In this document: positions 1 through 24,200 of the stretch, piece by piece | Position numbering within the stretch: position 1 is the first letter of the stretch | How the letters are laid out: each line of letters starts with the position of its first letter | Source: a virus | IMG/VR virus record: IMGVR_UViG_3300035698_001912 | Coordinates: 1-27,170 of that record | Strand: one strand, 5' to 3' | Length of the DNA: 27,170 nt | The notes under the pieces: model-generated | Seen by the model: only the letters and a program-made list of their open reading frames with translations | Database searches by the model: none | What the model was told of the DNA's origin: nothing | Position numbers and translations under genes: made by a program

Positions 1-2
1 AT

Positions 3-41
3 AGTACGCATGAGACATTCATAGAGAGTAGGGGGGAATAA
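3..41 (+). CDS. 3' end of an upstream gene (partial)
   Basis: The reading frame from base 3 stays open to a TAA at 39-41. That stop overlaps the ATG at 41 as TAATG, a junction used repeatedly in this genome (693, 2733, 14200, 17109). Only 12 codons are visible, so nothing can be said about function. An alternative is frame 1, which closes earlier at a TAG at 22-24 without an overlap. The choice rests only on the junction style. Confidence 0.3.
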   Translation, partial: STHETFIESRGE

Positions 42-247
42 TGAGATTCAAGGATATAAAGGTAGGATGGTTTTTCAGTATGGGGGGGAGTTATTTCATA
101 AGGGTGTGTAAGAGTGGTAATGTGGGGGCGGTTTGTGTTGAGGGAAATAGTGATTACCATACTGCGGGAGATGCGTGGAATGTGGATAACAACATGGAAG
201 TAGAGCGTGTTGTGTTCACGGGTGTACATCAAATGGAGGGTGTATGA
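41..247 (+). CDS. Small hypothetical phage protein, 68 aa
   Basis: I do not recognise this protein. The ATG at 41 is preceded by a very G-rich SD, AGGGGGG at 30-36, with a 4-nt spacer. The product is a small protein rich in Gly, Val and aromatic residues in its N-terminal half (KVGWFFSMGGSYFIRV), which looks like short beta strands, with two cysteines (C23, C32) and no signal peptide. It ends in an ATGA overlap with the next gene, so the two are probably translationally coupled. It belongs to the left-hand cluster of small accessory genes. Confidence 0.6.
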   Translation: MRFKDIKVGWFFSMGGSYFIRVCKSGNVGAVCVEGNSDYHTAGDAWNVDNNMEVERVVFTGVHQMEGV

Positions 248-693
248 GAGAGATAACCGTTGATGATTTACGTTTCGTGGGGAGTCCATGGGAGAATTAT
301 AAGAAATTGCTTTCCTGTGACAGTTTAAAGAGTATGGATAAGAGTCGGGAGTATACGTTGTTGGAGATTTTGAATATGAGGAGGTTCACCGATTTCGAGA
401 AGATATGGATTGCGAGGGATTTCTTATCATGCAATATTCGTGGTTTGTTTTATGTTTGGTGTGAGCGGAGAATGCCTTGTACCAAGAACGATTTATTTAT
501 ATTGGATTTGGACGAAAAATACCATTCTGGGAATATGAGTGTTGAGGAGTTTCGTTCCGGTATTACTGAATGGAAAGGTATTGCTGATGAAAAGGACAAT
601 ATAGGTTTTTTCACCCCCGACAGGACAACTGAAGACCCTAAGGAGATGAAAGCCCAGATAAAGTATTTAAAGTCACTTTTGAAGGAGGGGTAA
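244..693 (+). CDS. Hypothetical phage protein, 149 aa
   Basis: No function is recognised. The ATG at 244 overlaps the upstream TGA, and a GGAGGG SD lies just before it. The sequence is mostly predicted helix: residues about 38-80 (LLEILNMRRFTDFEKIWIAR and the following FYVWCERR) form a compact helical segment with aromatic and Cys residues. The C-terminal 25 residues are Lys-rich and helical. The segment LEILN..D..KIWIARDFL resembles a helical pattern I associate with uncharacterised phage proteins, but I cannot name a family. It ends with TAATG overlapping the next gene. Confidence 0.65.
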   Translation: MREITVDDLRFVGSPWENYKKLLSCDSLKSMDKSREYTLLEILNMRRFTDFEKIWIARDFLSCNIRGLFYVWCERRMPCTKNDLFILDLDEKYHSGNMSVEEFRSGITEWKGIADEKDNIGFFTPDRTTEDPKEMKAQIKYLKSLLKEG

Positions 694-1076
694 TGGAGTT
701 TAAACTGAAAACAGGTAGGGAGTGGCAGGAGATTGGCACTTTTGTATTTGAAAACATTGAGAATAAAACTCTTCGTGAGTGTGATTGTCCCTCCCGTGGG
801 GTGTATGTCTGGTTGAAGGAGCTAGAAGACAACCCTAAGGCTATTGAAGAATTTCGCAAGAATCACCAAATCAGGTTAATGCCTACACGTACTGAGACAG
901 ATGCGGGAGATGCGATAAGGAAAGGGAATAAGACTGCGGAGGATTTACTTGATACATTGATGAATGTAAAGAGTCGTGCCACTACCAAGGGTAAGATAGC
1001 GGGAGTTAAGAGGGTTGAGGAGGTTGTTGAGATGATAGGAGCAGAAGAGGGTGAATATGAAGGTAATGACATATAG
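693..1076 (+). CDS. Hypothetical phage protein, 127 aa
   Basis: Not recognised. The start ATG at 693 overlaps the previous stop (TAATG), with GGAGGGG a few bases upstream. The N-terminal half has alternating hydrophobic and charged residues and two close cysteines (CDC, residues 30-32). The C-terminal half (about residues 65-127) is strongly charged and predicted helical, ending in an acidic tail (EEGEYEGNDI). No membrane segment or known motif is visible. It probably shares an operon with its neighbours. Confidence 0.6.
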   Translation: MEFKLKTGREWQEIGTFVFENIENKTLRECDCPSRGVYVWLKELEDNPKAIEEFRKNHQIRLMPTRTETDAGDAIRKGNKTAEDLLDTLMNVKSRATTKGKIAGVKRVEEVVEMIGAEEGEYEGNDI

Positions 1077-1084
1077 GAGGGATT

Positions 1085-1324
1085 ATGCCTAGATATTCAA
1101 TGAGGTTTGCAATAGCGAATGAAACATGGATAGATGTTGAGTATATAGAGAAGATAGTCGAGGCGAGGGAGGTCTACGACAAATTGTGCCGTACCTTTAG
1201 CAAGCCCCCTAGAAGGAGAGTAAAGAATCTGGAATGTCCGGCTTGTGGGGGATTGATGGTTAAGAACCCCGATAGTGGAGTATTTATGTGTAAGGAAGAA
1301 TGTTGGATAAAGGAGAGTGAGTGA
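1085..1324 (+). CDS. Small zinc-ribbon protein, 79 aa
   Basis: The C-terminal third carries a zinc-ribbon pattern, C51-x2-C54, 14 residues, then C69-x3-C73 (CPACGG and MCKEECW). This should bind one zinc ion and fold as a small treble-clef or ribbon. The N-terminal 45 residues are helical and basic near the ribbon (KPPRRRVK), which would suit nucleic acid contact, though that is inference. The start ATG at 1085 has AGGAGGG directly upstream. It is one of several Cys-pair miniproteins in this region and its target is unknown. Confidence 0.65.
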   Translation: MPRYSMRFAIANETWIDVEYIEKIVEAREVYDKLCRTFSKPPRRRVKNLECPACGGLMVKNPDSGVFMCKEECWIKESE

Positions 1325-1325
1325 T

Positions 1326-1595
1326 ATGAAATGTCCAAAATGCAGACAAGATTGGCCTGAACCATGTGAACAAACTCAGGCAATTTATAAGCGAGGCAAA
1401 TGTATTACATGTCTAATAGAAGACGGAGAACATTGGCAAAAAGAACCATACGAATTTAAAGTTGATAAAGCACTAAAGGAGGAATCCCTCCCCCCTGCTT
1501 ACGAGGAAGAGGTGTGTAAATTAGATGTGAAGGTGTGTTCTGATTGCAATGATATGACTTGTGATGGTAAAAAGATAAAGGAGGTAGAGGAATGA
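1326..1595 (+). CDS. Cys-rich zinc-binding-like protein, 89 aa
   Basis: I place the start at ATG 1326. A GTG at 1317 also opens the frame but lies 1 nt from the AAGGAG SD (1310-1315), too close for initiation. Cysteine pairs appear at residues 3/6 (CPKC), 27/30 (CITC) and near residues 72-80 (CSDCNDMTC), a pattern that suggests two zinc sites. The middle carries the segment KALKEESLPP, which recurs in the 111-aa protein at 3511 (see findings). No catalytic motif is visible. It overlaps the next start as ATGA. Confidence 0.6.
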   Translation: MKCPKCRQDWPEPCEQTQAIYKRGKCITCLIEDGEHWQKEPYEFKVDKALKEESLPPAYEEEVCKLDVKVCSDCNDMTCDGKKIKEVEE

Positions 1596-1888
1596 ATACA
1601 TATTTAAAGAATATGGAAGATGGTACTCAGACAGTCTTTAAAAAGATGTTTGACATGGTGGGGGCTGACTATGAGATGGAACTGGTGTCTGATTGGTATT
1701 TCAACCATGAGTGGACTGAGGCTCAAGAGGAAGAATTTCACAAATGGTTCGTGGAGTACCATTGGAAAGGAGATGGCAAAAATGGAAAGGGGTGTTTAAA
1801 TAAATCGGCAAAGACAAAAAAAGTATGCGAGAGGGGTTGGGGATGGTTTAATTTAATGTACGGTTGGAAACTAAAGGAGATAAAATGA
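1592..1888 (+). CDS. Hypothetical aromatic-rich protein, 98 aa
   Basis: No family is recognised. The ATG at 1592 overlaps the previous TGA and follows AAGGAGGTAGAGG. The product is unusually rich in Trp and aromatic residues (about ten Trp in 98 residues, with WFNHEWTEAQ and WKGDGKNGKG as examples). It is helical and acidic in the middle and basic towards the C-terminus. It is cytosolic by appearance, with no signal peptide. It ends in an ATGA overlap with the metallophosphoesterase gene, so the two are probably translated together. Confidence 0.6.
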   Translation: MNTYLKNMEDGTQTVFKKMFDMVGADYEMELVSDWYFNHEWTEAQEEEFHKWFVEYHWKGDGKNGKGCLNKSAKTKKVCERGWGWFNLMYGWKLKEIK

Positions 1889-2733
1889 GTGAATTTATCA
1901 GAAAGGAAGTACAGGAATCGAGATTTACCATATATAACATAAGTGATATGCATGTAGGTAGTCTGCAATTCCATTCCAAGGCTTTTCATCGTCTGAAGGC
2001 TAAAATCTTAAAGGAGAAGAACACTTATGTAACATTCGGTGGAGATGCAGTAGAGGCAAAACTGATTAACTCTCCCCACTTCAACCCCGATGGACTGAAA
2101 CCCCGTCAGTTGAATGCCCATAACCAAGCGGATGCTTTTGTGGAGTTATGGAAACCATTGGCTGAGAAGACACTTCTTATGATGCCAGGAAACCATGACC
2201 AGTACCTTGCACCTAACTTCGACTTGATGAAGTATATCTGTAAGGAATTAGACCTCTTGGATGTTATGGGTAGTTATCAGAGTTGGTTAAGTGTCAATGA
2301 GATGACTTTTCATTTTTGGCATGGCAGAGCCGTATTACCGAGGGGAGCGAAAGACCCTATACAGAAAGCAGCCAATCAGAGAGCTTGGTTGAAGAATCGT
2401 TTATATCCGTTGGCGGGTAGTGCACATGCACAGTATATGGCACATACTCATGCCTTGATAATAGTCCCTCCGATAGAGCAGTACGCATTATTGGACTCAG
2501 GTGCTAATGTGAAGGCCAGAAGCTTTACAGAGTCCCCTACGGTGATTAACGGGGAAGTATGGGTACATCCCGATGCACGTTGGTATGTAAATACGGGTAC
2601 TTTGAGAAGAAGTGGGGGTTTTGGGGTACAAGACTACTCGGAAGTAGCCGGTTTTGCACCCGCTCCTATAGGATGTACTAAGACGATTATCCGTGATGGA
2701 AGAATTGTTAATATCGAAAAGGTCTTACTATAA
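1885..2733 (+). CDS. Calcineurin-like metallophosphoesterase, 282 aa
   Basis: The signature motifs of the calcineurin-like phosphoesterase superfamily appear in order: D21-M-H23 (motif I), G-G-D54 (motif II), G-N103-H104-D105 (motif III), H146 in FWHGR, and H187-T-H189 (the GHTH-type motif, here AHTH). Together these form the two-metal site that hydrolyses phosphoester bonds. Members act on nucleotides, nucleic acids (SbcD/Mre11) or phosphoproteins; the substrate here is not determined by sequence. The start is ATG 1885 with AAGGAG at 1874-1879. A TTG at 1864 would place the SD inside the gene. Its setting among small phage genes suggests DNA or RNA processing, or counter-defence, which is inference. 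Confidence 0.88.
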   Translation: MSEFIRKEVQESRFTIYNISDMHVGSLQFHSKAFHRLKAKILKEKNTYVTFGGDAVEAKLINSPHFNPDGLKPRQLNAHNQADAFVELWKPLAEKTLLMMPGNHDQYLAPNFDLMKYICKELDLLDVMGSYQSWLSVNEMTFHFWHGRAVLPRGAKDPIQKAANQRAWLKNRLYPLAGSAHAQYMAHTHALIIVPPIEQYALLDSGANVKARSFTESPTVINGEVWVHPDARWYVNTGTLRRSGGFGVQDYSEVAGFAPAPIGCTKTIIRDGRIVNIEKVLL

Positions 2734-2993
2734 TGCCTTGGAGTAAGGAAAAACACAGAGAGGTAAGGAGGGAGTTAAAGGGGAAGGGTATCTGTACCAG
2801 GTGCAGAAAAGCCCCCTCTTCTGAGGTAGCTAATCTCTGTTTAACATGTAGGGAGCAGATAAAAGCAAGACTGCATGGTAATCGTGATAAGGGATTGTGT
2901 GCGGGATGTAAATGCCCTACAGAAGGAACATGGTGGTGTGCAACATGTTATGAGAGTCAACACAGATGGAGACAACTTAAACTAAGTTTATAG
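2733..2993 (+). CDS. Double zinc-finger-like protein, 86 aa
   Basis: Two similar Cys4 units follow each other: GICTRCRKAP...CLTC (about residues 20-40) and GLCAGCKCP...CATC (about 55-74). Each has CxxC, a 10-14 residue spacer and CxxC, as in tandem zinc ribbons found in phage and HNH-associated proteins. Flanking basic segments could contact nucleic acid. The ATG at 2733 overlaps the upstream TAA, and the SD is weak (AAAAGG), so translation probably depends on coupling to the phosphoesterase gene. The internal similarity suggests an ancient duplication. Confidence 0.7.
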   Translation: MPWSKEKHREVRRELKGKGICTRCRKAPSSEVANLCLTCREQIKARLHGNRDKGLCAGCKCPTEGTWWCATCYESQHRWRQLKLSL

Positions 2994-3001
2994 GAGGAGA
3001 T

Positions 3002-3508
3002 ATGAGGAAGAATGAAATACTGAAACTAAAAGACAAATACCCTAAGATATTAGGCGATTGGGGTTGTAATCCTAGAGACTCATGCATGGCTTTTGGCATA
3101 GAGTGCGATGAAGGATGGGCAGAGTTGCTTGATGTACTGATGAGAAGCCTACAATGGAATACGGATAAAAACGGATATCCACAGGTGATAGCAGACCAAA
3201 TAAAGGAGAAGTACGGCACGTTGAGGTTTTACTCCCACACAATAGGCGGAGAGGTTGAACGACATGACTACATCTATAACCAATATAAATGGTGGCAGAA
3301 AGCTATTTTTAGTACCATTAAATGGATGTTCCCGTTTATTCGCAGAAGGTTAGAATTTCACTTTTCGGAACAAGTCGGACATATTGACGGGATGATTAGC
3401 TTTGCTGAGACTATGAGCGGACATATCTGCGAGACATGCGGTAAGTCTGGTGAGGTGGTTGGAAAAGGATGGCTTAAGTGTCTATGTAGTGAATGTGAGG
3501 AGGTGTAG
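3002..3508 (+). CDS. Conserved phage protein of unknown function, 168 aa
   Basis: This looks like a member of a widespread uncharacterised phage family recognised by three landmarks: KYPKI near the start with a later C-M-A-F-G-I-E-C-D-E-G-W block (about residues 29-40), then IADQIKEKYGTLRFY (about 63-77), and a C-terminal CxxCG...C..C zinc-binding-like end (CETCGKSG and CLCSEC). Between the second and third landmarks there is an extra segment of about 40 residues with a hydrophobic stretch (KAIFSTIKWMFPFI), longer than I expect for the family and possibly a membrane-associating helix. The start ATG at 3002 has TAGGAGGAG upstream. The role is unknown. Confidence 0.75.
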   Translation: MRKNEILKLKDKYPKILGDWGCNPRDSCMAFGIECDEGWAELLDVLMRSLQWNTDKNGYPQVIADQIKEKYGTLRFYSHTIGGEVERHDYIYNQYKWWQKAIFSTIKWMFPFIRRRLEFHFSEQVGHIDGMISFAETMSGHICETCGKSGEVVGKGWLKCLCSECEEV

Positions 3509-3510
3509 GG

Positions 3511-3846
3511 ATGATAACAGGCGAAGAATGGCTAGAAATAGATAGAGAGCGGTGTGAGAAAATATTTACCCTTGAGCAGAGGGTGGGGGAGTTGGAGGAA
3601 GATATGCTGGAATACCTTCAGACCAATATCTCACTAGAGCGGGACAACATAGAACTCCGCAAAACGTTGGAGGAGATAGTAAAACTTAACCGCTATAGTG
3701 GGGATGAAATGTGGATTATAGCAGACGAAGCACTAAATCAATCCCTCCCCCCTACCTCACTCAAAGAGAAGGTTCGTAATGCTTGGACTGCTGACAAGGT
3801 GTCAATTGAGCCAATGGAGGAGTTTGAAAACATGCCTAGAACGTAA
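3511..3846 (+). CDS. Coiled-coil phage protein, 111 aa
   Basis: The N-terminal half (about residues 12-62) has heptad-like Leu/Ile spacing with many Glu and Arg residues, predicting a parallel coiled coil. It is followed by the segment EMWIIADEALNQSLPP, a type of ending seen in many small uncharacterised phage proteins. The last 35 residues are polar. The ATG at 3511 is preceded by GAGGAGG. It is the last gene before the repeat-rich gap and its TAA lies inside the left arm of the palindrome at 3843-3859. No function is assigned. Confidence 0.65.
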   Translation: MITGEEWLEIDRERCEKIFTLEQRVGELEEDMLEYLQTNISLERDNIELRKTLEEIVKLNRYSGDEMWIIADEALNQSLPPTSLKEKVRNAWTADKVSIEPMEEFENMPRT

Positions 3847-4006
3847 ACTAATAGTTTACAATCGTAAGGTAAAATAAACCAGTAAAACGATTATATAGAA
3901 CGTTCATAATAGTTGAACTGTTCAGTAAAACGAACAAATAGGCCGATTAGGTCAACGAGGTTAGACATTAACGATGAAATATTCAGTAAAACGAATAGGA
4001 GGATAG
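3843..4006 (+). repeat. Gene-free region with palindrome and three repeats
   Basis: This stretch holds no ORF. It starts with a perfect inverted repeat, GTAAACTA-A-TAGTTTAC (3843-3859). CAGTAAAACGA then occurs three times (3880-3890, 3923-3933, 3984-3994). The second and third copies sit in inverted repeats with different but complementary arms: TGTTC-AGTAAAAC-GAACA (3919-3936) and TATTC-AGTAAAAC-GAATA (3980-3997). Further GAAC/GTTC half-sites occur at 3898-3905 and 3914-3924. The third copy abuts the SD (AGGAGG) of the next gene. An operator array or replication-initiation iterons are both possible. Confidence 0.75.
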
Positions 4007-4201
4007 ATGAAGCATTTAACAGTACCACCGGAAATAGCACTACCTGAGATGTTCCCCGTGAAGAAGAAGAAGAAAAAGCTTAAGCAGATGGCGATGTGTA
4101 TGAACTGTGTGAAGTTTTGGGATTGTATTCTTCTTGACACCAGATTGAAGTGCGACTTCCATATATGGGGTGAAGAGATTAAATGGTGGGGTGCAAAATG
4201 A
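4007..4201 (+). CDS. Small zinc-binding-like protein, 64 aa
   Basis: A lysine run (residues 19-27) is followed by C31-x2-C34-x5-C40-x8-C49-x-F, a four-cysteine spacing that I have seen in small phage zinc proteins. It would hold one zinc ion. The ATG at 4007 follows an AGGAGG SD and lies directly downstream of the third copy of the CAGTAAAACGA repeat, so it is the most likely gene to be controlled by that region. The basic stretch suggests RNA or DNA contact, which is inference. Confidence 0.65.
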   Translation: MKHLTVPPEIALPEMFPVKKKKKKLKQMAMCMNCVKFWDCILLDTRLKCDFHIWGEEIKWWGAK

Positions 4202-4371
4202 AGATATCAAGGATAGTGATACAGGTATGCCACGACAGAGGGATGACAACTAAAGTACTCTATTCAACGGAGGAGGCATTGAACGCTCTGAAGGATTTGG
4301 TAAATTTTGAGGGAACTGATTTGACGGAAATAGATGGAGTATGGCAAAAGGAGGAGACATGTTCACAGTAG
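4198..4371 (+). CDS. Hypothetical small protein, 57 aa
   Basis: I prefer ATG 4198 because it forms the ATGA overlap common in this genome. ATG 4183, 15 nt upstream in the same frame, cannot be excluded, since neither has a strong SD. The protein has an N-terminal strand (KISRIVIQV) followed by a helix (TEEALNALKDLVNF), as in small alpha/beta folds. No function is recognised. The end overlaps the next gene by 13 nt, and the SD for that gene lies within this coding sequence. Confidence 0.55.
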   Translation: MKISRIVIQVCHDRGMTTKVLYSTEEALNALKDLVNFEGTDLTEIDGVWQKEETCSQ

Positions 4372-4583
4372 AGATTAAGATTAACGGTAGCTTGATTCAG
4401 CACATTTACGGGCATAACGAGGGGGAAGATGCGGATGGGAGGACAAGGTATACGTTTGACTTGTATGACGTTCAGGGGCAGAAACTGATAAAAGGGGAAG
4501 TTAAACACCATAGACATGAGGGTATTCGCCCTCTGCTTACACAGATTTTCAAGGAGGTTGAGAATGAAGCGGATAATACTTAG
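4359..4583 (+). CDS. Hypothetical small protein, 74 aa
   Basis: The start is ATG 4359, preceded by AAGGAGG at 4348-4354; an in-frame ATG at 4341 lies upstream of this SD and is less likely. The protein begins with strands (FTVEIKINGSLIQHIYG and RYTFDLYDVQGQKLIKG), so it is probably a small beta-rich fold, and ends with a helix containing KEVENE. The DNA encoding that helix also carries the SD and start of the next gene. Function is unknown. Confidence 0.6.
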   Translation: MFTVEIKINGSLIQHIYGHNEGEDADGRTRYTFDLYDVQGQKLIKGEVKHHRHEGIRPLLTQIFKEVENEADNT

Positions 4584-4740
4584 TAGATGGACTGTCGAGG
4601 AAGTACCCATGGAGCATTGGAAAGAACTTATCTCAGCTTTGGTTATGGTTGGTTATAGTGTATACGGAGATGATGATAGAATAGTGTTTACATTAGGGGA
4701 TGATGATATCGCAAAGGAGGTTGAGAATGGGGAAGAGTAA
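4564..4740 (+). CDS. Hypothetical small protein, 58 aa
   Basis: The start is ATG 4564 with the SD AAGGAGG at 4551-4557, 6 nt away. A longer reading from 4516 lacks such a signal. The protein has an N-terminal strand, a helix (EHWKELISALVMVG) and a strand pair (YSVYGDDDRIVFTL), ending in an acidic tail with KEVENGEE. The tail is encoded by the same sequence that serves as SD and start for the following 46-residue ORF. No family is recognised. Confidence 0.6.
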   Translation: MKRIILSRWTVEEVPMEHWKELISALVMVGYSVYGDDDRIVFTLGDDDIAKEVENGEE

Positions 4741-4867
4741 CAGGTTTCAGAACGAGAAGAAGATAAAGATAGGGCATACCCCCGCAAGGAAGAGTGTAAG
4801 AAACGCATTAAACAAATTAAAGGGGAAAAATGTCAAATTACTACGACCAAGTTCCGAAGGGATTTAA
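4727..4867 (+). CDS. Very small basic protein, 46 aa
   Basis: This short ORF starts at ATG 4727 with AAGGAGG at 4714-4720. The 16 bases from SD to ATG (AAGGAGGTTGAGAATG) are identical to those of the gene at 4564, which argues that it is a real translated gene. The product is strongly basic, with about a dozen Lys/Arg in 46 residues (NEKKIKIGHTPARKSVRN and KLKGKNVK), as in nucleic-acid binding peptides. It overlaps the terminase start by 38 nt in another frame. It sits where small terminase subunits often are, but it is too short to call one. Confidence 0.55.
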   Translation: MGKSNRFQNEKKIKIGHTPARKSVRNALNKLKGKNVKLLRPSSEGI

Positions 4868-6620
4868 GGAAAATATCAGATGGAGAAAGGAAGTACTGTT
4901 AGCGTGTGAGAATGATGATACTGCTAGAACTGACTTTTGGCAGATGTGTAGTGAGGATATGCTATTTTATATAAACACCTTCCTGTACACGTTAGACCCC
5001 CGTGAGGGAGAGGAACCCGTTAGACCCTTTATCACCTATGACTACCAAGATGAATCGCTCATACAGATGCAGGCATGGTTCGGTAAGGAGGATATAGTCA
5101 TAGAGAAAGCCCGTGATATGGGTGCTAGTTGGTTGAATTTAATGTTATTTGAGTATAATTGGCACTTCAGAGAGTATCTTACTCTTCTCTTGGCTTCACG
5201 GAAACAGGATTTGGTGTATAAGAAGGGGAATGAAGCCGCACTCTTCAGTAAGATTGACTTCCTTCATAGGTTTCTCCCAGATTGGCTGATGCCTAACCAT
5301 GACAAGAAAGAACTCCATATGAGGAACTTGGATAACAACTCCACAATAGATGGAGAGTCGACTACTAAAAACTTAGCAACTGGTGACAGACGTACTGCAA
5401 TGCTATTGGACGAGTTTGCCAAAGTTGAGATTGCAGATGGATATAATATTCTTAAATCAACTCGTGCGGTTACAAAATGCCGTATATTCAACTCGACATA
5501 CTTCGGGATAAATAATGCCTTTTATGATACTGTCCACGGAGAAAAACCACTTAAAAATATCATATCAATGCATTGGTGGTTACGTCCTGAGTTCGGTGCG
5601 GGATTATACAAAGTAAAAGACGGTAGAGTAGAGATATTGGATAACGATTACGACTTCAAGGGATATGAGTTCATTTTAGAAGACCCACAAAACCCTCAGG
5701 GGTTCAGAAGTCCTTGGTATGACTATGAGGAGTCCCGTTGTATATCCAAACGTGAAATGGCAGAAGAAGTGGACATGAATCCTAAAGGTGGCGACCATGT
5801 ATACTTTGAAGACGTTGTTAAGAAAGTCATAGGCCGTTGCAGAGTTCCTACACATATTGGTAATCTAATCCATTCTGATAAGGGTGAAATCGAGCGATTT
5901 GAGGAGGTTGAAGAAGGAAACTTAAAACTATGGTGTGTTATTGACCCCTCTACGGAACGTCCTATTGTAAGTGACTACTGTATGGGAATTGATATAGCTA
6001 TGGGTACGGGTGCAACTCCTTCGGTTATAACGGTAGCAAATAAAATTACCGGTGAGAAAGTATGTGAATTTGCAGACTCTCATTTACTTCCACATGAATT
6101 TGCCAACCTTGCAGTAGCGGTAGCTGACTGGTTTGATGGAGCTAGGATGTGTTGGGAAGCCAATGGGCCAGGAAGAATATTCGGTATAAGAATTAAACAG
6201 TTGGAATATGGAAATTACTATACTAGAACTGATGTTGACACGGGTGCTGACTCAGAGAAGGCCGGTTGGTGGAGTGATGGAAAAACAAAACCCATACTAC
6301 TGAGTGAATATCGTAGATGCCTCCATGATGGTTCGTTTATAAACTATTCCAAGGTAAGTTTGGACGAGTGTTTGGAATACTCAGCGGATGCAAGTGGAGA
6401 TATTATTCATGTAGGTGCAAAGAACTCACAAGACCCCACGGGTGCGAGAGACAACCATGGTGATAGAGTTATAGCAGATGCGTGTTGTAACTGGATATGC
6501 ACTCGAACAGGTGGTGTAGAGGAATCTAGGGAAGAAGATGAAGTACCGATAAACACCCTTGCGTGGAGGATGGACTTAGAGAAAAAGAAAGAGAGAAGGG
6601 CTAACGAGTTAAATTGGTAG
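4830..6620 (+). CDS. terL: Terminase large subunit, 596 aa
   Basis: This is the ATPase-nuclease motor that packages phage DNA into the prohead. The N-terminal ATPase has a variant Walker A (ARDMGASW, residues 94-101) after VIEK, and a Walker B (MLLDEFA, 191-197) with the expected Asp-Glu pair. The C-terminal RNase H-like nuclease has acidic residues at D388 (MGIDIAMG), E443 (WEANGPG) and D545 (GDRVIADA). The length is normal for the family. The start is ATG 4830 with AGGGG a few bases upstream. No separate small subunit of normal size is visible in the window. It is followed by a 257-nt gap before the portal. Confidence 0.95.
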   Translation: MSNYYDQVPKGFKENIRWRKEVLLACENDDTARTDFWQMCSEDMLFYINTFLYTLDPREGEEPVRPFITYDYQDESLIQMQAWFGKEDIVIEKARDMGASWLNLMLFEYNWHFREYLTLLLASRKQDLVYKKGNEAALFSKIDFLHRFLPDWLMPNHDKKELHMRNLDNNSTIDGESTTKNLATGDRRTAMLLDEFAKVEIADGYNILKSTRAVTKCRIFNSTYFGINNAFYDTVHGEKPLKNIISMHWWLRPEFGAGLYKVKDGRVEILDNDYDFKGYEFILEDPQNPQGFRSPWYDYEESRCISKREMAEEVDMNPKGGDHVYFEDVVKKVIGRCRVPTHIGNLIHSDKGEIERFEEVEEGNLKLWCVIDPSTERPIVSDYCMGIDIAMGTGATPSVITVANKITGEKVCEFADSHLLPHEFANLAVAVADWFDGARMCWEANGPGRIFGIRIKQLEYGNYYTRTDVDTGADSEKAGWWSDGKTKPILLSEYRRCLHDGSFINYSKVSLDECLEYSADASGDIIHVGAKNSQDPTGARDNHGDRVIADACCNWICTRTGGVEESREEDEVPINTLAWRMDLEKKKERRANELNW

Positions 6621-6661
6621 GGTTGAGGCTATTCTGTAAGAAGTACAAGGGGTTATTTCTG

Positions 6662-6697
6662 AAAAAAGGAAAACCCGCCTAATTAATTTTAGACGGG
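6662..6697 (-). terminator. Rho-independent terminator, minus strand
   Basis: On the minus strand CCCGTCTA (6697-6690) pairs with TAGGCGGG (6681-6674) over 8 bp with one G-U pair, around an 8-nt AT loop. It is followed by TTTTCCTTTTTT (6673-6662). Read on the plus strand the stem has a C-A mismatch and no U-tract follows, so the orientation is minus. The stem can extend outward by up to five weaker pairs. Confidence 0.8.
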
Positions 6698-6718
6698 CTT
6701 CCTACAAGGGGGAGGGAA
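6662..6718 (-). ncRNA. Predicted small RNA, about 57 nt, with C-rich loop
   Basis: The unit is defined by a minus-strand promoter (6753-6725) and a Rho-independent terminator whose U-tract ends at 6662. The predicted transcript starts near 6718. Its 5' part can fold as CUUCC (6719-6715) / GGAAG (6702-6698) around a 12-nt loop, CUCCCCCUUGUA, which resembles the anti-Shine-Dalgarno end of 16S rRNA. Its 3' part is the terminator hairpin. No ORF is present. It lies between terL and the portal gene, antisense to read-through mRNA. Transcription is predicted, not observed. The exact start could differ by a few bases. Confidence 0.7.
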
Positions 6719-6724
6719 GAGTAC

Positions 6725-6753
6725 AGTATACCGCACGTAATGAGGCATGTCAA
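6725..6753 (-). promoter_or_regulatory. Strong sigma70-type promoter, minus strand
   Basis: Read on the minus strand, TTGACA (6753-6748) is a perfect -35 box, followed by a 17-bp spacer and TATACT (6730-6725), which matches five of six bases of the -10 consensus. This is the best match to a housekeeping promoter that I found by eye in the window. It points away from all protein genes and towards the adjacent terminator, so its product is the predicted small RNA. Confidence 0.8.
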
Positions 6754-6782
6754 GGACTGTTACTACAATAAATGCAGAATAT

Positions 6783-6820
6783 TACCAAATTTGCATAATA
6801 ATACCAAAAACCGTTTGCAT
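6783..6820 (+). repeat. Paired TACCAAA/TTTGCAT direct repeats
   Basis: TACCAAA occurs at 6783-6789 and 6802-6808, and TTTGCAT at 6790-6796 and 6814-6820, in the same order each time with 0 and 5 nt between the two halves. The second TTTGCAT contains the -35 box of the portal promoter, so the repeats could bind a transcription regulator. That is inference from position. Confidence 0.5.
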
Positions 6821-6842
6821 TTGTAATAACCTATGCTACAAT
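6815..6842 (+). promoter_or_regulatory. Extended -10 promoter for the head gene operon
   Basis: TTGCAT (6815-6820) is a weak -35 box, followed by a 16-bp spacer and TACAAT (6837-6842) preceded by TG at 6834-6835, i.e. an extended -10 element (TGC-TACAAT). Transcription would start near 6849-6850. This supports the portal start at ATG 6878, because the alternative GTG at 6851 would be at the very end of the mRNA. It would drive the portal-to-tail gene run. Confidence 0.65.
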
Positions 6843-6877
6843 AGACTTTAGTGGTTAGTCTTAAACAAGGAGCAGTC

Positions 6878-8644
6878 ATGGTAAAGATTCCTGAGGAACA
6901 GTTCAAAAAGATTCAAGATGCCGTATCCAAAAACATGGATAATCTCCAAACCACTAGAGAAAAACAAGTAGAATTTTTAAAATCATTCGTAGGAGCAAAT
7001 TACTCTGACAATGGTTCGGATGATAGAATACCTCTGAATATGTTGGAATTAATGGTATCAACGTACCAAGATAATATCGTAAGTCAGAATCCTTCAGTTA
7101 AAATCAAAGCGAAACAGGACAAATACCAACCGGCCGCCAAAACTCTGGAACTTGCAGTAGACCACTTGATAAATGAGATTAACCTAAGTGATACCATAGA
7201 GGAGTGTTTTCTTTCTTCTATGTTTACCCTCGGAATTGCAAAAGTCGGACTGAATAAGAACTCCAAAGTGGAATTGGGTGGAATCTTTCACGATGTAGGT
7301 CAACCTTTCTGTGATAATGTCCAGTTTGATGATTTCGTTTATGATACTTCTGCTTATACTTGGGAAAAATGCTCATTTATGGGTGACAGAGTTAAACTCC
7401 CCTTGGATGATGTAAAAGACTGTGGACTGTACGATAAGAAAGTTGTGGATAAATTAGTCCCGATGGAAAAGAGAGAACACGACCAGAAAGACGGGGAACG
7501 TTCTTCCAATCTAAGTCAGTCTGATATGTCTAAAACTGATGATGAAGATTTCCGTCCAATGGTTCAATTGTGGAATATCTGGATACCAAGTGAAAATCTA
7601 GTCGTAACAATGGCAGATGATGATTCTATAAAACAACCTTTGGCTACATTTGAGTGGGATGGTCCCGAACATGGCATGTACAGATTTCTATTTTACCGTA
7701 AAATACCCTGTAACACACTTCCGTTGTCCCCTGTGGCATTGACAGTCGACTTACACGAACTGACAAACAAACTATATGTTAAATGCTCAAACCAAGCAAT
7801 GAGACAGAAGAAAATAACTGGTTATAAAGCCGGAGCGGATAAAGATGCGGGTAGAGTAATGGATGCGGGTGATGGGGATGTATTCAGAATGGACGACCCT
7901 AAAGCGGTAACAGAGTTTGGAACGGGTGGACCTGACCAAGTAAACATGCTATTCACTCAGCAAGCTCGTCAACAGTTCAGTTATATAGCGGGTAATTTGG
8001 ATGCAATGGCGGGATTAGCCCCTCAAGCGGGAACTGCCAAACAGGAATCATTGATTAAGAACTCGACTAATGTACGTTTAAAGGCTATGGGAGGCACAAC
8101 TGAGAAGTTTGTCAAGGGTATAATGCAGGATTTGGCATGGTATTTGTGGACTGACCCGCTTATAGAATTGCCGTTGATTAAAAGAAGCGGAGACTTTGAA
8201 GTACCCGTAACTTTCTCTCCCGAAGAACGTGAAGGTGATTTTTTTGATTATAATATTGACATAGTGCCTTATTCAATGCAGAAGAAGACCCCTATGGAAA
8301 CGATGGAGGCAATAGACGGGCAGATAGCTAAGTTAGCCCCTTGGGTTCCTCTAATGCAACAACAGGGACAGAGCATTGATTTCCAAGAGTATATCAACAT
8401 GGCGGCAGACTTGAATGATTTGCCTGAGTTGAAAAAACTCATTACATCACAGACCCCTGATGAAGAAAGACAATTCGGAGCGTCTACGGGAGAGGCACCA
8501 GTTAAAATACAAGACCAGACAAAAGAATACATGCACTCATACGAAAGCAAGCCAAATATGGCGGGTGCAGAAAATATGATGAATCAACAGTTAATGTCGG
8601 GACTTCAAGGAAAACAGAACGATATGGCAATGGGCCAAGTATAA
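6878..8644 (+). CDS. Portal protein, 588 aa
   Basis: The portal forms the dodecameric ring at one capsid vertex through which DNA passes. The identification rests on position (after terL, before scaffold and capsid), on length, and on a recognisable pattern of podovirus-type portals: an early FVGANYSDNGSDDRIPLNML block (about residues 39-58), the FDDFVYDTSAYTWEKCSFM segment (about 149-167), and a helical C-terminal region ending in a Gln/Met-rich tail. The start is ATG 6878 with AAGGAG at 6867-6872. A GTG at 6851 opens the frame earlier but lies at the predicted transcription start. Confidence 0.85.
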   Translation: MVKIPEEQFKKIQDAVSKNMDNLQTTREKQVEFLKSFVGANYSDNGSDDRIPLNMLELMVSTYQDNIVSQNPSVKIKAKQDKYQPAAKTLELAVDHLINEINLSDTIEECFLSSMFTLGIAKVGLNKNSKVELGGIFHDVGQPFCDNVQFDDFVYDTSAYTWEKCSFMGDRVKLPLDDVKDCGLYDKKVVDKLVPMEKREHDQKDGERSSNLSQSDMSKTDDEDFRPMVQLWNIWIPSENLVVTMADDDSIKQPLATFEWDGPEHGMYRFLFYRKIPCNTLPLSPVALTVDLHELTNKLYVKCSNQAMRQKKITGYKAGADKDAGRVMDAGDGDVFRMDDPKAVTEFGTGGPDQVNMLFTQQARQQFSYIAGNLDAMAGLAPQAGTAKQESLIKNSTNVRLKAMGGTTEKFVKGIMQDLAWYLWTDPLIELPLIKRSGDFEVPVTFSPEEREGDFFDYNIDIVPYSMQKKTPMETMEAIDGQIAKLAPWVPLMQQQGQSIDFQEYINMAADLNDLPELKKLITSQTPDEERQFGASTGEAPVKIQDQTKEYMHSYESKPNMAGAENMMNQQLMSGLQGKQNDMAMGQV

Positions 8645-11361: not shown

Positions 11362-12174
11362 ATGAGTACTATTAAAGCGGATTATATGAACACCGCATCA
11401 AGCACCGGAAGAAGTCCTGCCCTGTGGCACGACTGTCCCCTTGATATGATTGAGATTGACAACAATGTTGGGTACACAATGAAAGACGATTTCACCAAGT
11501 ACGCATCAACTGCAACAACTGTATTGAATGCAAGCGGAAAGCCTACTTTTGAAGGCGACTGTGCGATTGACGGTACTGGTGTATTGGGTGGCGGAGCATA
11601 TTTGTTCTGTACTACTGACAATGAAGAAGCAGGTCTGGATTGTGGTGGAGGCGTTTCTGCCCCTTTCGCAATTAGTGACACTTCAGGGTCTGAAAAAGCA
11701 CTATGGTTTGAAGCAAGAGTTAAAAAGTCCTTGATTACAAATGATGGAAACATGTTTGTAGGACTTACTGCTCCTGGTTCAGCCGTTGCCAATTTCATCA
11801 ATGATGGTGGAACTGATTTTGCAGACGTAGCCCTTATGGGATTCGTTCAATGGGAAGCAGATGGTGATGCAATTAGTTTTGTATATCAGGCAAACGGACA
11901 AGCATTTGTAACTTTGATTGCAACTGCCCACATTCCTGTTGCTTTGACTTACGTAAACTTAGGCTTCAAGTATGACCCGACCGCAGAAGATGCAAAGAAA
12001 ATCCAAATCTTTGTAAACAATGAAGAGCAGAGTACTTATGTTACTGCTACTCAGATTGCTACTGCGACTTTCCCAGATGCGGAAGTTATGGTTCCATCTA
12101 TTTCGATTAAGGCATCAAGTGCAAATGACTTGACTGTTACCGAAGCTTGGTACCAATGTTCTCAGTTGCGATAG
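11362..12174 (+). CDS. Beta-sandwich virion protein, 270 aa
   Basis: The protein directly after the major capsid protein is rich in Gly, Thr, Ala and Val with alternating strand patterns. Residues about 112-265 look like a concanavalin/LamG-type jelly roll: LWFEARVKKS, MFVGLTAPG, ALMGFVQWEADGDAISFVYQ, then KKIQIFVNNEEQ and a closing strand ending in W. It is probably a capsid decoration or minor head protein; a role in binding surface sugars is possible. No signal peptide. The SD is AGGAGA. Confidence 0.7.
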   Translation: MSTIKADYMNTASSTGRSPALWHDCPLDMIEIDNNVGYTMKDDFTKYASTATTVLNASGKPTFEGDCAIDGTGVLGGGAYLFCTTDNEEAGLDCGGGVSAPFAISDTSGSEKALWFEARVKKSLITNDGNMFVGLTAPGSAVANFINDGGTDFADVALMGFVQWEADGDAISFVYQANGQAFVTLIATAHIPVALTYVNLGFKYDPTAEDAKKIQIFVNNEEQSTYVTATQIATATFPDAEVMVPSISIKASSANDLTVTEAWYQCSQLR

Positions 12175-21255: not shown

Positions 21256-24200
21256 ATGCCCTTAAAAGAAAAATATGAAAACGACCTCTACACGATGATA
21301 GAGGAACTTGAAGGTGCTGACTTTTCCTATGAAGAAATCGGTGGCGCAATCAAGAAGTATAAATCCAAGTATGAACCTATTTCCTTTATAGAGGATAACC
21401 CCTCCGCAGTTCAGGCTATCAATAACATTAGCGGGACTCTGTCACGTAGACAACTCAAGGATATAGGATATACCGAACCTACCTCAAAAGCCCAACGTCA
21501 GAGCATGGCAGAACACTTTGCCTCCTTTGAGAATACTGCCCCTATTGAGCAGACTGAAGATGTTCAGCAGATTATGGAACAGGAAGCAAGCATTGACCCT
21601 AATTTACAGAAACGTCAGAATCAGATGAAAGCGTATGATGCCTTACGTGAGAAAGCAAACGATGCTACTGGTGGAGCGGCTGAGTTTATTTTTAAGCCGG
21701 TTGAGTCGATTAACTCCTTTATTTTAGGGAAGACCCGTGGAGTTGGGCAATTACTCACACGTAAAGATGCGGGATATAAACCCCTTGGTGAATATGTATT
21801 AGGGGACTATATGGACACCCTGAACAAGTTTTTCTCCAACCCTACACTCCAAGAGGAATCTATTCAATATTCCCGTCAGCAACACAAGAAGAGACTCTCA
21901 AGTGGTAAGGGGCAATCGGACTTGATTGATTGGGGAGTAAAGAAACTAACTGACACTCTCGGTGATAAGACAATGAAAGTCCTCTCCAATGATATGGGTG
22001 GGAAGAAAGGATATAAAGACAAATTACTTGCATGGGCGGCAGGTTTTTCCGATGATATGTCTAATCTAGCAAGTGATACTATTCCTCAACTTTTAGCACT
22101 CCAAGGTGTTACTCGTTCAGCTTATGGACAAGCCCCTTCTAGTGGTGGAATGGCGGGTGGACTAGGTTTGGCAAACACACCAAGACAGGCATACACCATT
22201 AATACTCTTTTACAGGGGGGACTCCATGGAGTACAGAACTTTGTTACGAGTCCTGGTGATATGAAAGAAAGAGGAAAAAGAGGACTACTGAGTTTCCTAT
22301 ATATCTCCACCCCCGCTCTATCTTCATGGTTGGGTGGAATGGCCCCTAAATTAGGAGCAAATGACACGGGAACTTTAGGAGCAGTAACATTTATTGATTT
22401 TTTAGCCAATGCCGCAGTTACAGAGTTTGCAAGTGAGTCCTATTATAAACGGATAAAGAAAGCATATACTGATAACAAAGGAAATTGGGTTCAGGGAACT
22501 TTAGCCGCTATTGATGCTATAAAGGGTGATGCGTTTACAGATATAGCCTTTTCCGCTTTTACCCGTCCTTTGGGTAGTGGGAAGGCAAATAAACCTTTTC
22601 AGGATACTCGTCAACCACAAGAGCCTGCTATTAAGATGGGAGAAGAGCCCCCGCGTATCGGTAGTGATATGGAAGGTAGAATGCCTCAAGGGGAGCCAAG
22701 GGTAGAAGAAAAAGTAGTGGCAGAAAAAACACAAGATAAAAGTGTAAATAAGTTAGCAGAAGAGTTTTTTGATAACCCTAAAGAGGCTTCTGACTATTTG
22801 AAGGGAGCTAAAGAGGATGGTGCTACACCTAAGGATATGAGAGAGGATTTAGTTGCACGTATTGAGAACAAAGAGAAAATGGTACAAGAGAAATTGGAAA
22901 CCAAAGATGAAATAAAGCAACTTGCAACCTTGGCAAGAAGTAATCCTAAACTGAAAGCAGAAATGGATGCAATTCAAAAAGGTGAAAGCGATGCTACCTA
23001 TAAGGATTTATTGGATAAATATTCTACTCCCGAAGCAAGGACAGAAGAACCCGCAATCAAGGCAGAGCCTAGTGACGAGTTCCGCATGGAGACACCTGAC
23101 GAGGGGAGTGCACGAGTGGAACCTAAGACAGAAGAACCTCCCCGTATAGACCAAGACGCCGAGAGGGTGGAGGATAAAGTTCCCAACCCCATACCTGATG
23201 GGCTAGACGCAAGGGCAGATATTCAACGAAGAATGGATGAAGGAATGTCACGGGATGAAGCAATAAAAGCAAGAAATCAAGAATTTGACGGAGTGAGAGA
23301 GGACGTTGATGCCTTGCCTGAAGGTACGCTAGTGAAGGATACGTCAGGTAGGACTTATTGGAAAGAAGATGGAGATTGGAAGGAAGTTAGAAATGGTGAA
23401 GTAAAAGAATCTTCAGTTGTGGGCGACAAGGTTAACTTAAGGGGTGGGGAGATACTAGGAAGAGGATTAAAATATGAAGACGTAACCAACACTAAAACCA
23501 CCGAACCTCCCCGTATAGACCAAGACGCCGAGAGGGAACTGCCTCCCTTGATTCAGAAACGTGTCAATCAACTTGAGAAACGCTTAGAGAATACCGAAAG
23601 TGAAAAAGACAGGAAGACTATCAGCGATGAAATTAAAAGACTTCAGAGTGGAGAGAAGACTAAACGAGAAGTGCAAATAGAAAAAAGTCAAGCACCTGAA
23701 AAACTACCCATTATAGATGAAGATAGGACTCAAGATGATTTAACCTCCCCTGAAGGTGGCAGAGGGTTCTCTGATGGTGAGCCAGGTATTGAAACACGCT
23801 TTGACCGTAATCCCGCCAATCCATTGCTAAAAGGAGAAGCAAGGGAATTTGTTGATACTCTTCGCAAGGACACTCCCGTTCCAGAAGCACAAAGTATGTC
23901 TCAATGGAACAAAGAGGCAAATGAACGTGTTTTAAAAGACTTTGACGGTGAAGCCACTCGTTTAGAGAATGGCGATATGAATACCGGCCCCGTTGACACA
24001 ATGGTTGCCCGTAAAGTTATTGAGAAGCTATTTTATGACGGTGACATTGATAGAGCAAGACGTATTCAAATGAATTATGATGACACGGGAACACTTGAAG
24101 CAAGAGCATTGAGGGCAAGACGGGACTTGGTTCTTACACCAGAAGAAAGACGTAGAGCCCAAGTAAGAGAGAATATTCTTAAACCTAGTGATAAAGCAAA

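Follow-up and report, generated by a model that had tools for sequence, protein, structure and literature searches.

A predicted minus-strand small RNA gene between the terminase and portal genes of a virus, and a covarying plus-strand RNA in its distant relatives

The stretch of DNA analysed here (the window) is a virus contig of 27,170 bases, on which all clear genes are located on the plus strand, in agreement with the initial annotation, and which also encodes a T7-like internal virion protein. The genes for the large terminase subunit (terL) and the portal protein are separated by 257 nt (6621-6877), the largest intergenic gap of the contig. The portal start codon is preceded by AAGGAG at 6868-6873, and the portal reading frame is also open from a GTG at 6851. 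The following features are located in and around this gap:

4830-6620, plus strand: terL, terminase large subunit (weak PHROG matches; relatives)
6662-6718, minus strand: predicted small RNA of about 57 nt, its start placed 7 nt past the -10 hexamer
6662-6667, minus strand: terminator U-run, TTTTTT (sequence)
6669-6702, minus strand: terminator hairpin GGAAGCCCGUCUAAAAUUAAUUAGGCGGGUUUUC (sequence and folding)
6703-6722, minus strand: C-rich leader ACUCUUCCCUCCCCCUUGUA, predicted to be single-stranded; its first bases may precede the start
6725-6730, minus strand: -10 hexamer TATACT (5/6), 17-bp spacer (sequence)
6748-6753, minus strand: -35 hexamer TTGACA (6/6) (sequence)
6783-6796, plus strand: operator-like repeat, copy 1, TACCAAATTTGCAT (motif count)
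6802-6820, plus strand: operator-like repeat, copy 2, TACCAAAAACCGTTTGCAT, overlapping the plus-strand -35
6814-6842, plus strand: promoter-like TTTGCA-17-TACAAT with TG before the -10, divergent from the minus-strand promoter
6878-8644, plus strand: portal protein, ATG at 6878 (homology to relatives)

Elsewhere in the window, a 45-nt direct repeat (89% identical; 23123-23167 and 23492-23536, plus strand) is located within the gene for the 1684-aa internal virion protein. In addition, CAGTAAAACGA occurs three times on the plus strand (3880-3890, 3923-3933 and 3984-3994) inside a 160-nt gap (3847-4006), with no copy elsewhere in the window and three copies in 0 of 100 shuffles; this triple is a candidate for an operator, a phage promoter or an iteron. 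Upstream of terL (1-4830), ribosome-binding sites are richer in G (GGAGGG, AGGGGGG), and those of the structural genes (6850-27170) are of the AAGGAGA type, with less G than in the upstream block. GC skew peaks in the first 2 kb.

The minus-strand promoter is of the sigma-70 type, and no other 11/12 site was found in the window; its TTGACA (6753-6748), 17-bp spacer and TATACT (6730-6725) are all placed as the initial annotation had reported. The bases 6-8 nt past the -10 are C, T and T, with no purine at the expected start, and the nearest purine, A6722, lies just three bases past the -10; the position at which transcription would begin is uncertain. Given a start near 6718, the originally proposed length of about 57 nt holds. 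Downstream of TATACT, the minus strand reads GTACTCTTCCCTCCCCCTTGTA, then the hairpin GGAAGCCCGTCTAAAATTAATTAGGCGGGTTTTCC, then TTTTTT to 6662. The terminator described earlier is present, with its U-tract ending at 6662, and its stem (6702-6669) comprises 14 pairs, not 8, the highest number among the terminator-like sites listed.

The predicted RNA has a folding energy of -20.2 kcal/mol (z -4.3). Its hairpin is more stable when read from the minus strand (-20.0 vs -14.5 kcal/mol on the plus strand) because two G-U pairs become A-C mismatches on the plus strand, and a U-run is present on the minus strand only. A first stem CUUCC/GGAAG had also been drawn, for which the pairing probability is about 0.01. 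The terminator stem has GGAAG at its base, and CUCCCCCUUGU, instead of forming a hairpin loop, therefore belongs to an open 5′ leader (ACUCUUCCCUCCCCCUUGU), each base of which is unpaired with a probability of at least 0.87. The RNA has no coding capacity, its sole start-like codon being a TTG followed at once by TAG, and it shows three features of a stand-alone small RNA: its own predicted promoter, an intrinsic terminator on the same strand and the lack of a coding sequence. A short repeat, TACAAGGGG, flanks the terminator hairpin on both sides (6648-6656 and 6703-6711, plus strand) and resembles a direct repeat around an insertion; this could be chance.

Since shuffled windows contain on average 0.69 promoter matches of at least 11/12, the promoter match alone means little. 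This frequency, together with the absence of a purine start, would suit a promoter-like site that merely happens to precede a hairpin. However, a promoter of at least 11/12 followed within 150 nt by a terminator of -16 kcal/mol or lower did not occur in any of 1000 shuffled windows; lowering the promoter threshold to at least 10/12 gave only 3 occurrences in 1000. Even the laxer pair (at least 10/12; -13 kcal/mol or lower) was detected only three times in 1.89 Mb of relatives' loci, some of them overlapping, and always on the plus strand, so that no minus-strand pair was found at all. A coincidence of this kind appears unlikely. The proposal that the elements form one gene is strengthened by this pairing, which lies far above chance, and by the tuning of the hairpin to the minus strand, and it loses the stem-loop originally drawn. 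Read most simply, these predicted elements would yield a discrete RNA from the minus strand that is controlled by its own promoter and terminator, and a real small RNA gene at 6718-6662 is predicted as the likely case.

The minus-strand promoter faces away from the promoter-like site at 6814-6842, which probably serves the portal operon. The motif TACCAAA-N(0-6)-TTTGCAT has two copies in the whole window, both between these divergent promoters, and is absent from shuffles; because the motif was read off these two sites, this count is not an independent test. The presence of two operator-like repeats between the promoters suggests that both are regulated together.

Comparison with other viruses was based on approximately 220 IMG/VR loci collected by alignment-based TerL and portal searches, among which 168 distinct loci carry both genes (the window included). 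These relatives are distant (33-49% identity over the best segment of TerL and 27-41% for portal), and single-protein searches with terL, portal and capsid yielded no near relatives. The terL-portal gap is at most 60 nt in 119 of the 168 loci, 61-200 nt in 17 and more than 200 nt in 32. No minus-strand promoter of at least 10/12 followed by a terminator was found in the other larger terL-portal gaps screened in these distant relatives; this screen covered all but the five gaps above about 1.4 kb, and a separate promoter-terminator scan covered all loci. The arrangement sought on the basis of the initial annotation was thus absent between terL and portal in all relatives found, whose TerL identity is 49% at most, a distance at which such an absence counts neither for nor against the proposal. 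The exact leader pattern was not found in viral contigs, and searches of GenBank phage DNA gave no match with the terL-portal stretch and only short chance pieces with the RNA region. As far as can be seen from these sequences, the arrangement is restricted to the lineage of the window.

A different plus-strand RNA, here called R1, was detected a short distance upstream of portal in eight relatives with terL and portal. It is a three-way-junction RNA of about 102 nt, and two weaker members bring the alignment to ten:

L092, 1147-1249, plus strand: clear R1 member
L093, 1315-1421, plus strand: clear R1 member
L095, 5887-5991, plus strand: clear R1 member
L107, 4088-4189, plus strand: clear R1 member
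L131, 3769-3871, plus strand: clear R1 member
L066, 4643-4743, plus strand: clear R1 member
L102, 2350-2454, plus strand: clear R1 member
L121, 4199-4304, plus strand: clear R1 member
L111, 2582-2679, plus strand: weaker R1 member
L115, 1233-1332, plus strand: weaker R1 member

R1 has an outer stem CGGG/CCCG, a variable stem mostly capped by CGGCCA, and a junction ending in GCAAGAA. The apex of its long stem reads X-UG-X'-CA-X'', in which X is complementary to both the loop X' and the 3′ arm X'' and so has two alternative partners. Among the ten members, whose alignment was fitted to the model, 29 of the 38 pairs change on both sides and 92.5% of cells pair; none of 500 shuffles reached these values, and slid structures dropped to approximately 40-50%. 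A pattern scan of viral contigs retrieved 70 stretches, with 57 model matches at E < 0.001. These matches lie in contigs L230-L298 (for example, L277:1227-1324 and L249:2029-1930), some of which carry two copies (L242:5290-5190 and 4106-4007; L294:6498-6398 and 2083-1979; L276:4492-4588 and 11998-12102). Double changes were observed in 28 of the 38 pairs over 50 distinct rows; since the scan pattern fixed GTGC, CAC and TTTTTRTTGCCCG, those columns are invariant by the way in which the matches were selected. The same pattern was found at 80 loci in bacterial genomes, 6 of which match the model.

R1 sits between co-directional genes, the downstream gene mostly encoding a major head protein, portal, scaffold or terminase, and a few of its neighbours encode HNH endonucleases. 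In L115 (1188-1332), a sigma-70-type TTGACA-17-TAAAGT is located directly upstream of R1, and therefore R1 there may be a discrete transcript and not only a leader. No match to R1 was obtained at the cut-off in Rfam 15, and no description was found in the literature, which is not proof of novelty. R1 looks like an undescribed RNA family, and a strongly covarying RNA that is absent from Rfam and precedes the head genes of many unrelated-looking phages is of wider interest.

With regard to the function of the window RNA, we tentatively favor, at somewhat less than even probability, a short antisense RNA gene acting in cis on terL-to-portal read-through mRNA, a mechanism that we infer by analogy. 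Host RNA polymerase would synthesise a stable transcript about 57 nt long. Because no terminator-like site was found on the plus strand within the terL-portal gap, terL transcripts could run on into portal. The small RNA would pair with perfect complementarity to the terL-portal spacer of this mRNA, RNase III would cut the duplex, and the read-through mRNA would be separated or destabilised, leaving the promoter at 6814-6842 to drive portal and the genes that follow it. The best plus-strand partner of the leader is its own complement (-40.6 kcal/mol; the next best is -23.7). The RNA (6718-6662) lies between the end of terL (6620) and the start of portal (6878) and overlaps no gene or ribosome-binding site; a cis effect on translation is therefore not obvious.

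Alternatively, the region may give rise to no functional RNA, in that a fortuitous minus-strand promoter is followed by an insulating terminator shielding terL, or transcription itself affects the portal promoter. We regard this as possible, at a lower probability than the cis-antisense reading: it accords with back-to-back promoters that have operator-like repeats between them, with a leader that lacks specific targets and with the absence of the arrangement from relatives, yet a minus-optimised terminator 23 nt past the -10 exceeds the needs of insulation, and a stable hairpin-ended RNA would still result. It is far less probable, to the point of being negligible, that the window RNA is a diverged member of R1. 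The two share their place between terL and portal, but the gap scores 3.3 bits on the plus strand and 0.2 bits on the minus strand with filters off, compared with 64-104 bits for clear relatives, and membership was rejected on this covariance model score.

A trans-acting role was also considered. RsaE/RoxS-type RNAs pair C-rich motifs with Shine-Dalgarno sites, lowering translation. Like these RNAs (RF01820), the window RNA carries a C-rich single-stranded stretch ahead of its terminator hairpin; unlike them, it is shorter and has one C-rich motif and no specific target found. Its open leader CCCUCCCCCUUGU, which is predicted to be single-stranded, could pair with G-rich Shine-Dalgarno sites, mainly those of upstream genes (AGGGGGG, GGAGGG), and reduce their translation, a role that we consider improbable. 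The mean pairing energy was -11.1 kcal/mol for sites upstream of terL vs -7.2 kcal/mol from portal on (p 0.007), and just 0.7% of the antisense 20-mers of the window match the pairing of the leader with the upstream sites; it was this stronger pairing with upstream ribosome-binding sites that made an anti-Shine-Dalgarno reading look attractive. However, composition suffices to explain it, since 19% of shuffled leaders reach the observed pairing, and the 16S tail gives the same upstream/downstream difference. Moreover, the 25 best sites in the window include 1 ribosome-binding site (0.8 expected), and the early status of the upstream genes is an assumption. In Rfam, the window RNA has no match at the cut-off, and its top resemblance, RsaE, is insignificant (E 0.5; 19.1 bits, where the gathering cut-off is 79). 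Specific trans targets of the leader were ruled out by the internal-window, shuffled-leader, 16S-tail and whole-window controls. A phage anti-Shine-Dalgarno RNA that lowers translation of the whole upstream block, whose genes are probably early and have G-rich sites, and spares the structural genes is very improbable; if true, it would amount to a translational early-to-late switch encoded in a divergent control region.

The lambda OOP RNA is small, and like OOP (as well as P22 sar and lambda aQ) the window RNA would have its own promoter and an intrinsic terminator and be read against its neighbouring genes, a comparison that rests on arrangement and claims no sequence relation. Unlike OOP, which overlaps the cII gene, the window RNA overlaps only the intergenic spacer and not, as an OOP-like cis-antisense RNA would, the coding sequence or translation start of its target; the parallel with OOP and RNase III is an analogy. 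OOP, sar and aQ are phage antisense RNAs with their own promoter and an intrinsic terminator (PMC12197685), and for lytic phages such as LUZ100 and phiR1-37, non-coding transcripts from the minus strand have been reported within or close to structural genes, which they have been proposed to regulate (PMC10134795, PMC12197685). The latter were seen by RNA-seq whereas the window RNA is predicted only, and its terL-portal position differs from theirs. The phi29 packaging RNA (RF00044) is likewise a phage RNA, and the window RNA adjoins packaging genes, but the window RNA has neither an Rfam match nor a multi-helix structure. On these comparisons, it would be a phage antisense RNA of a fairly ordinary type.

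Antisense RNAs recur in the transcriptomes of lytic phages, and few of their roles are known. If real, a compact and self-contained antisense RNA at the border between a packaging gene and the structural operon of an uncultured phage would provide an easily tested case.
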